The notes beneath the pieces are model-generated. The model had not been told where the DNA came from. It saw only the letters and a program-made list of their open reading frames with translations, and did no database searches. From contig NZ_AZFZ01000008.1 in assembly GCF_001435895.1 (NCBI RefSeq), forward strand, positions 1-64,000: a stretch of DNA of 64,000 nt, given 5' to 3'. Of the stretch, positions 29,311-33,061 are shown piece after piece. Both the position numbers and the translations under genes were made by a program. The stretch's first letter is position 1, and each line of letters starts with the position of its first letter. The stretch comes from Lentilactobacillus parafarraginis DSM 18390 = JCM 14109. Its GTDB lineage: Bacteria > Bacillota > Bacilli > Lactobacillales > Lactobacillaceae.

Positions 29311-29565
29311 CTAGTCATTATTTTTGAAGCCGTATTTCTTGTTGAAACGATCAACGGCACCATCGGCCTGAGTAAACTTCTGCTTACCCGTGTAGAATGG
29401 GTGAGAATCTGATGAAATTTCAACACGAATCAATGGATAAGTGTTGCCATCTTCCCATTCAATCGTTTCGTCAGAAGTCTTAGTTGAGCCTGACAAAAAC
29501 TTAAAGCCAGTACTTGAATCTTGAAATACAACTTGGTGGTAATCTGGATGAATTCCTTTTTTCAT
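29311..29565 (-). CDS. rpmE2: Ribosomal protein L31 type B
   Basis: Component of the 50S subunit. The 84-residue protein starts [16 protein letters not shown] and lacks the CxxC zinc motif of type A L31, so it is the zinc-independent (C-minus) form that is usually induced when zinc is low. AAAGGAG lies before the ATG. A small hairpin abuts the ribosome-binding site and could give feedback control. Confidence 0.96.
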
Positions 29566-29667: not shown

Positions 29668-30954
29668 TCAAACCTTTTCTTCGTCTTCAACGGTAAGCTT
29701 AATATCGGCTCCTAATCCGGTTAATTTGTCGACCAAATTCCCGTATCCACGAAGAATATTCTCGGCATGGGAAATTTCGGTGGTACCCTTAGCCATTAAC
29801 CCCGCAATTAATAGGGACGCACCGGCGCGAATTTCGCCGGCATCCACCTTTGCCCCGACAAGTTTGGGTGAGGGATCAACCACGATAATGCCTTCATCGG
29901 TATCCTTAGACTTAACGCGGCCGCCAAGCTTGGCGAGCTGAGAGATGTGCTTAATCCGCTGGGGATAAATAGTGTCAATAATGATGCTTTCGCCGGTTGC
30001 TGTAAATAGCAGCGGCGTAATGGGCTGTTGCAGATCCGTCGCAAATCCCGGATATGGCATCACCTTAATCCGGATTGGCTTGAGATTATGGGATGGGCCC
30101 ACGTAGACGCTATCTTCATAAACCGTCAGGTCACAGCCCATTTCTTCGAGCTTTGCAACAAACGATTCCAAATGTTCAGGAATAATGTTGGTGATGAGAA
30201 CGCCATCGCCCATTGCAGCGGCCAGAGATAAGTATGTGCCAGCTTCAATTCGATCAGGAATGATGGTGTGCGTGTTCTTGGCCTGCAATGTTGGCACACC
30301 TTCAATTCGAATCACGTCGGTACCGGCACCACGAATATTTGCCCCCATATTGTTCAGGAAAGTCGCAATGTCAATGATCTCCGGTTCCTTGGCAGCATTG
30401 CCAATCACCGTCGTTCCAGGAACCTTAACGGATGCCAGAATTGTGTTGATCGTTGCCCCAACAGAAACGATGTCTAAGAAGATTTGGGCACCATGAAGGC
30501 CATCCGGGCCGGTTTGAATGGTAACCGTGCCGTCCTTTTCACTGACTTCGGCTCCCAGGGCTTTAAACGCCTTGATATGCTGATCAATCGGGCGAGGCCC
30601 AATATTATCACCGCCAGGAAAACTCACCACCGCCCGTTGAAAACGACCAAGAAGGGCGCCCATAAAGTAATACGACGCCCGCAAGCTCTTGATGGCTTTG
30701 CTGGGAAGCGGTGCCTCCACAATGTTAGTCGGATCAATTGTGAGCACATCCCCGCTAAAGGTGGATGAGACGTTCATCGATTTTAGAATAAGCATTAAAT
30801 TGTGGACATCAAGAATATCAGGAACTGAATCAAATCTGACCGGGGTATCTGCTAGGATGGCAGCCGGGATCAGCGCCACGGTACTGTTTTTAGCGCCGCC
30901 GATCGATACTTCGCCAGATAGGCGGTTCCCGCCATTTATTATTAATTTACTCAT
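29668..30954 (-). CDS. murA: UDP-GlcNAc 1-carboxyvinyltransferase with Cys-to-Asp active site
   Basis: First committed step of peptidoglycan synthesis, enolpyruvyl transfer from PEP to UDP-GlcNAc. The 428-residue protein has Lys22-Asn23 (AKNST) and the full two-domain EPSP-synthase-like fold. The active-site loop reads FPGGDNIGPRPIDQH: the usual cysteine (Cys115 in Escherichia coli) is aspartate here, residue 116. That change is known from naturally fosfomycin-resistant enzymes such as those of mycobacteria and chlamydiae. The start at 30954 begins MSKLIINGGN after AGGA; a 98-codon open extension upstream has no homology signs. It lies between pyrG and rpmE2. Confidence 0.96.
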   Translation of the reverse strand: MSKLIINGGNRLSGEVSIGGAKNSTVALIPAAILADTPVRFDSVPDILDVHNLMLILKSMNVSSTFSGDVLTIDPTNIVEAPLPSKAIKSLRASYYFMGALLGRFQRAVVSFPGGDNIGPRPIDQHIKAFKALGAEVSEKDGTVTIQTGPDGLHGAQIFLDIVSVGATINTILASVKVPGTTVIGNAAKEPEIIDIATFLNNMGANIRGAGTDVIRIEGVPTLQAKNTHTIIPDRIEAGTYLSLAAAMGDGVLITNIIPEHLESFVAKLEEMGCDLTVYEDSVYVGPSHNLKPIRIKVMPYPGFATDLQQPITPLLFTATGESIIIDTIYPQRIKHISQLAKLGGRVKSKDTDEGIIVVDPSPKLVGAKVDAGEIRAGASLLIAGLMAKGTTEISHAENILRGYGNLVDKLTGLGADIKLTVEDEEKV

Positions 30955-31005
30955 CGAAACTTTCCTCACTTTTTCCATTCGAACATTTTTCATGTCATGG
31001 AACAT

Positions 31006-31285: not shown

Positions 31286-33061
<1,776 letters not shown>

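Follow-up and report, generated by a model that had tools for sequence, protein, structure and literature searches.

The window, a 64,000-nucleotide stretch of the Lentilactobacillus parafarraginis genome, carries on its minus strand a murA gene that encodes an aspartate in place of the usual active-site cysteine (Asp-type). The features considered here were the following:

29668..30954, minus strand: murA (MurAB/MurZ type), 428 aa, Asp-type; NCBIfam PRK12830 and TIGR01072 over cut-off
30607..30609, minus strand: codon GAT of Asp116, equivalent to E. coli Cys115; reverse complement read and aligned with E. coli MurA
30592..30594, minus strand: codon of Arg121, equivalent to E. coli Arg120 (phosphate binding); E. 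coli MurA alignment
29830..29835, minus strand: codons of Glu374-Ile375, equivalent to E. coli Asp369-Leu370; column comparison and E. coli alignment
30961..30967, minus strand: GAGGAAA, likely ribosome-binding site of murA; read in the sequence, 6 nt before the ATG
31286..32908, minus strand: open reading frame upstream of murA, presumably pyrG (CTP synthase), judging from its sequence
29311..29565, minus strand: small open reading frame downstream of murA, resembling ribosomal protein L31 type B

The murA frame belongs to a 526-aa open reading frame made up of the 428-aa MurA and an upstream open frame; residues were counted from the ATG at 30954. Profile scans, run without the first residue, gave 460.9 bits with TIGR01072 (cut-off 392.7) and 625.2 with PRK12830 (cut-off 552), and the aroA model scored 75.4, far below its cut-off of 287.25. 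Re-reading of the GAT codon and alignment with E. coli MurA confirmed the active-site loop GGDNIGPRP with Asp at residue 116, as an earlier note on this DNA had stated. In the alignment for an equivalent cysteine which that note had called for, Asp116 fell on Cys115; the sole cysteine of the protein is residue 274, outside the loop, and therefore no other loop cysteine substitutes for position 116. Lys22, Asn23, Arg91, Arg120, Asp305, Arg371 and Arg397 (E. coli numbers) were all kept. The AlphaFold model had a pLDDT of 89.8, with values below 50 only at 112-119, the catalytic loop, and at 423-427 (model numbering being one lower than the gene-based one). The protein falls in the MurAB lineage: its mean identity was 58% to 24 Cys-type MurABs and 40% to 15 MurAAs, the tree agreed and pyrG adjoins. 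A chance substitution, a sequencing error or a pseudogene was ruled out, since Asp is conserved in relatives across the family, a pyrG motif lies in the fetched stretch for 101 of the 140 relatives' locus rows, and the frame is open. The gene at 29668-30954 thus has the features of an ordinary, functional enzyme of MurAB type, whose activity is predicted.

Asp116 is a correct reading of an already known family trait. The Asp genotype was reported in 2022 in Leuconostoc and other Lactobacillaceae, with the same Asp at E. coli position 115, and was offered as the cause of their intrinsic fosfomycin resistance (PMC9733070); the available passages of that report hold nothing on a second Cys-type copy, on its loss or on residues 369-370. 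The MurAs of M. tuberculosis, C. trachomatis and B. burgdorferi carry the same Asp for Cys115 and are fosfomycin-insensitive (PMC4790336), so the parallel with mycobacteria and chlamydiae drawn in the earlier note was right. These organisms belong to other phyla, and the comparison with them is drawn from published descriptions; the closer precedent lies in the lactic acid bacteria (PMC9733070), and the trait is shared well beyond this genome. Resistance of C115D MurA to fosfomycin has been described repeatedly (PMC4790336, PMC10352792). Its cost is disputed, the enzyme being called 'fully active' in one source (PMC4790336) and credited in another with an efficiency that, in E. coli, is reduced more than 10-fold (PMC5652432). 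An experimental case comes from E. faecium, whose purified C119D enzyme was not inhibited by fosfomycin at concentrations of up to about 100 umol/L (PMC5652432). This is also a MurA of Lactobacillales, changed from TGT to GAT at the same codon and acting beside the host murA; it was found in 4 clinical isolates and is not ancestral (PMC5652432). The literature on C115D-type MurAs and the retention of the other catalytic positions together give good support to the expectation that the window's enzyme would be insensitive to fosfomycin.

At the level of the strain, the situation is complicated by a second MurA. Three PF00275 matches were found in the genome: AroA, the Asp-type MurA and a Cys-type MurAA with the loop GGCAIGSRP, located directly before mbl (locus L002). 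The two MurAs are 40% identical to each other. Around the same kind of MurA in L. reuteri the gene order was atp operon, DUF1146, murA, rod shape protein. A full target replacement would call for a genome devoid of Cys-type MurA, and here such a copy is present; fosfomycin resistance by bypass through the Asp copy is possible. The earlier note had predicted intrinsic resistance unless a second, cysteine-type MurA was the main enzyme: comparative and published evidence make resistance likely, and the copy named in that proviso does exist.

The proposed mechanism is as follows. The Asp-type MurA would transfer enolpyruvate from PEP to UDP-GlcNAc, the carboxylate of Asp116 taking the acid-base or product-release role, and position 116 offers no thiol for the fosfomycin epoxide to alkylate. 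Under fosfomycin, the Cys-type MurAA would be inactivated and the Asp-type MurAB would carry peptidoglycan synthesis. We regard it as very probable that the window's gene encodes such a working, insensitive MurAB, of an Asp type ancestral to the family, which would sustain peptidoglycan synthesis under the drug; activity, insensitivity and MIC are predicted.

Transport offers another possible route to resistance. No GlpT/UhpT-type transporter over the TIGR00881 cut-off was found in the window's genome, and 2 of 14 control genomes exceeded this cut-off; import of fosfomycin through this family thus seems absent from the strain. A high MIC alone would therefore be no proof of a MurA mechanism, and the lack of such an importer fits an explanation in which resistance stems mainly from poor uptake, the Asp being neutral for fosfomycin. 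This explanation leaves the fixed Asp unaccounted for and sits poorly with Asp enzymes of other species resisting fosfomycin in vitro (PMC4790336, PMC5652432); we consider it very unlikely.

The family-wide distribution of the Asp loop was examined at several levels. The closest named records to the window were from Lentilactobacillus (L. raoultii 94%, L. hilgardii 93%). Among 397 genomes of the family, 367 matched a strict Asp-loop pattern and 236 a Cys-loop pattern; both counts include some chance matches, and the strict Asp pattern misses the Leu codons TTA and TTG. The idea that the genera it left unmatched, including all sampled g16, lack the Asp was accordingly rejected, the sequences read from g16, g7 and g2 having GGDNLG. 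In a sample of the order, a wider Asp pattern matched every one of the 73 genomes from the family and only 6 of the 322 from outside it. Loci were fetched for three of these six, one of which (G700) contained a MurA; G445, G545 and G590 were unfetched and left out of judgement. In a class sample, 43 of 299 genomes matched and 30 loci were fetched, where tblastn with the window MurA found a MurA in five, namely L262, L284 and three loci from Lactobacillaceae, one of them the window; 20 further matches had no fetched locus and were left out of judgement. Apart from L262, L284, L117 and the three Lactobacillaceae (window included), the fetched loci of the class (n = 30) and order (n = 3) gave no tblastn match and were rejected as independent Asp-type MurAs.

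For 40 genera, a single representative genome was scanned with TIGR01072 and the loops were read. A full-length Asp-type MurAB was present in 38 of the 40, the exceptions being g18, where it is frame-shifted, and g28 (91% complete), with none. Cys-type MurAA was present in 18. Both types occurred in 17 representatives, only the Asp type in 22 (a count including the frame-shifted g18 and G028 with its catalytically dead MurAA copy) and only the Cys type in one. At least eight changes are needed to explain MurAA presence and absence over 42 rows of the MurAB tree, taken as a stand-in for the species tree with MurAA states assigned by genus. All 46 Lactobacillaceae Asp-MurABs formed one clade (SH-aLRT 100) in a quick tree for which columns 116, 374 and 375 had been named for exclusion, and no reversion was seen in any of the 141 Lactobacillaceae MurAB rows. 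Most likely, the Asp arose once, before the radiation of Lactobacillaceae, together with Asp369Glu and Leu370Ile.

Several further Asp-type sequences came to light. Accessory Asp-type MurAs with the loop GGDDFG.RP and Asp-Val at 369-370 occurred at L262 (G858), L284 (G719), L351 (G107) and L352 (G077). They are additional copies, carried by distant Bacilli and by a single Lactobacillaceae genus (g19), and have possibly spread between lineages. G700 (L170/L117), from another family of the order, has an Asp-type MurAB with GGDAIGPRP and Asp-Leu, outside the Lactobacillaceae clade. A truncated Asp-type murA, covering query residues 4-312 with 93.5-94% identity to the window, was found at L239, L240 and L320, the last being NZ_CP014632.1 24603-25529; its carriers were a plasmid of Loigolactobacillus backii (a beer isolate), typed as mobilizable and where the fragment adjoins a transporter gene, and contigs of Pediococcus damnosus and Secundilactobacillus paracollinoides. 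In G040 (genus g18, L113), a change of frame divides the Asp-type MurA between two open reading frames; no other MurA was found in this one-contig genome, and the split may be an assembly error or a real frameshift.

The genomes lacking a Cys-type MurA bear directly on the sufficiency of the Asp copy. L. laojiaonis (G012), of the window's own genus, is represented by a single 1.24-Mb contig (completeness score 88) with one MurA match, of Asp type, and an HMM search of the interval from its atp genes to mbl detected no MurA. A MurAA-profile search of the roughly 1.5-kb stretch preceding mbl in 21 genomes, L. laojiaonis and 20 Asp-only genus representatives, returned nothing, the window's genome as positive control giving E 3.8e-199; G027 and G349 had weak Mbl matches only and their interval was left out of the 21. 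In 14 of these 21 genomes, among them L. laojiaonis, the stretch contains ATP-synthase sequence, so that MurAA is really gone from its place there; the other seven differ in their surroundings. As no other MurA was found, the Asp-MurAB would, if the assemblies are right, make all UDP-GlcNAc-enolpyruvate in these species. Asp-type MurAB alone thus seems sufficient, judging from the 22 of 40 genus representatives and L. laojiaonis without a catalytic Cys-type MurA.

These data also weigh on whether the Asp-type MurAB is a minor or conditional enzyme, the Cys-type MurAA being the main one and the strain fosfomycin-sensitive despite its Asp copy. In B. subtilis, MurAA is the essential copy. Likewise, murA is essential in Listeria (PMC8959180), and both the location of the Cys-type MurAA beside mbl in the window's genome and its retention in 18 of 40 genus representatives are in agreement with such a role. 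This interpretation is opposed by the loss or death of MurAA in many relatives, set against a full-length Asp-MurAB in 38 of 40 genera, and by the E. faecium experiment, where the MIC was 128 ug/mL for the host, 512 with an added wild-type murA and >1,024 with an added C119D murA (PMC5652432). The added Asp copy thus raised the MIC above the added wild-type copy, and since the latter alone raised it fourfold, part of the effect is dosage. We consider a subordinate Asp-type MurAB unlikely, if somewhat less so than an uptake effect. Given the Asp-only relatives and the E. faecium result, an active Asp-type MurAB is likely to confer resistance even where both copies exist, and this is predicted for the window's strain by analogy. 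In L. delbrueckii, the fosfomycin MIC was >256 mg/L in all tested strains (PMC12077209).

The Asp is accompanied by a second signature. In a column comparison of the 46 Lactobacillaceae Asp-MurABs with 39 Cys-type MurAs (24 MurAB, 15 MurAA), G700 being kept apart, 82 columns were at least 95% conserved in both types; 79 agreed and three differed, namely 116, 374 and 375. Among 248 full-length MurA rows there were 141 with Asp and Glu-Ile, 104 with Cys and Asp-Leu, two with Asp and Asp-Val and one with Asp and Asp-Leu; open reading frames below 330 aa or without MurA motifs had been dropped, so that this set holds no broken or dead copies, and the window protein is counted twice. All 141 Asp/Glu-Ile rows came from Lactobacillaceae and none from loci outside the family. 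The nearest solved sequence to the window MurA, S. pneumoniae MurA1 (PDB 3zh3, E 1.5e-144), and the C. difficile MurA C116D (PDB 6q0a), with Asp at the same position as the window MurA, both have Asp-Leu at 369-370, unlike the window's Glu-Ile.

There is about an even chance that the Glu-Ile pair has a compensating or protecting role and is more than a marker. Asp369Asn and Leu370Ile are changes of fosfomycin-resistant E. coli (PMC4790336, PMC10352792), and among the papers listed by the literature searches none, judged by title and the start of the abstract, linked the pair to lactobacilli. The pair may equally have arisen on the same branch as a lineage marker with no functional partnership with Asp, an explanation whose chance we put just short of even. 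The Lactobacillaceae MurAB rows form one clade and therefore Asp and Glu-Ile count as a single event; moreover, other Asp-type MurAs do without the pair, such as G700 (Asp-Leu) and the four accessory copies of G858, G719, G077 and G107 (Asp-Val), and C. pecorum, with Asp at 115, keeps Asp369 and Leu370 by the implication of one report (PMC4062475). A mere marker is harder to reconcile with the pair making up two of the only three differing columns among 82, with the absence of any reversal of Glu-Ile in 141 rows, and with the alteration of these same two residues in resistant E. coli (PMC4790336, PMC10352792).

The fate of MurAA took an unexpected form in one genus. The weak second MurA match of G028 proved to be an open frame of 410 codons that lies between atpD and mreB and lacks the catalytic residues. 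G028 belongs to genus g6, which appears to be Limosilactobacillus because the MurAA of G393 (g6) matches an L. reuteri MurAA with 100% identity along 438 residues. An L. reuteri record named 'plasmid unnamed3' (NZ_CP065543.1, L319), on which murA is accompanied by atp genes and a rod shape gene, looks like a chromosomal fragment given a plasmid label. The 22 g6 genomes comprised 12 with a canonical Cys-type MurAA, eight with a dead full-length copy (L321-L325, L327, L328, L333), one with a partial change (L331) and one (G349) without a second match. In all eight dead MurAAs, 407-421 aa long, Lys22, Asn23, Arg91, Cys115 and Asp305 are gone, and Arg397 in seven (G172 has Arg there). The partial case, G365, shows Arg91His, Cys115Gly and His125Gln and keeps Lys22, Asn23, Arg120, Asp305 and Arg397. 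An mreB-type gene was present in the fetched stretch of all eight dead copies and atpD in seven, the eighth stretch (G340) being short. The MurABs of g6 (21 of 22 genomes) were all Asp with Glu-Ile, and in the MurAB tree the eight dead cases and the absent one formed one group (bootstrap 89, SH-aLRT 87, not starred), G365 lying elsewhere.

The dead copies showed the marks of constrained proteins. By the NG86 method, the pair G322/G230 had a dN of 0.031 and a dS of 0.254 (ratio 0.12); ratios of 0.16 and 0.14 (dS 1.2 and 1.5) were obtained for the two remaining pairs of this trio, G028/G172 and G311/G340 gave 0.06 and 0.09 with saturated dS, the remaining dead pairs had no dS value, and canonical MurAA pairs ranged from 0.02 to 0.10. 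Between G322 and G230, third positions held 62 of the 94 base differences, and there were 28 amino-acid changes, against a mean of 67 (minimum 55 of 500) under random placement of the same differences. Low dN/dS and fewer amino-acid changes than random thus identify the dead MurAAs as constrained proteins kept by purifying selection; at dS above 1, this constraint is weaker than on active ones. A two-domain fold was predicted for the G028 protein (pLDDT 89.5), whose best PDB matches were MurAs, with E. faecium MurAA at the top (TM 0.85/0.83, 25% identity), and three dead proteins, those of G028, G322 and G311, scored above the PF00275 cut-off. An evolutionary course can be proposed: the Asp-type MurAB being able to carry peptidoglycan synthesis alone, the Cys-type MurAA would have been free to change, and would then have been lost in many lineages and have become a pseudoenzyme at the old atp-mreB locus in one g6 clade.

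Comparison of the eight dead with eight canonical MurAAs gave 36% identity per column, and one window of 27 columns reached 77%, the highest maximum among 2000 shuffles being 68%. The consensus of this kept patch is LNKMGARVHGAGTxxIRIQGVxFLHGx; between canonical and distant MurAAs the same stretch was not special (61% against 59%). The patch starts two columns after the place of Asn197 of Listeria MurA, a ReoM-binding residue, placed here from a primer sequence in PMC8959180. In Listeria, N197D loses ReoM binding in the two-hybrid assay, keeps 13% in pull-down and escapes ClpCP degradation, and the murA paralogue murZ is involved in the control of MurA stability (PMC8959180). It is possible, if rather doubtful, that the dead MurAA acts as a regulator or decoy in the control of cell-wall synthesis, perhaps through ReoM and ClpCP, which would give MurA paralogues a non-catalytic role. 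The tie to ReoM is the weakest part of this regulatory reading: Asn197 is present in 8 of 8 canonical and only 3 of 8 dead sequences, four dead ones having Lys and one Asp, the Listeria escape residue. A copy of the Listeria surface is also disfavoured by columns 261-280, which should hold the second Listeria site, Ser262 (region placed by eye), and showed no special conservation (36%).

The Asp-type MurAB gives a target-based reason to expect fosfomycin resistance across a whole family of food and gut bacteria and, the trait being family-wide, lactobacilli would owe such resistance to an ancestral property of the chromosome and not to acquisition. The dead MurAA, a side result, matters more than the Asp trait itself, and it is this protein and the Glu-Ile signature that deserve the attention of specialists. 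Lactobacillaceae represent a natural experiment, with repeated losses of one MurA paralogue and, in one clade, its persistence as a conserved dead enzyme, so that a non-catalytic role of such paralogues can be tested directly.
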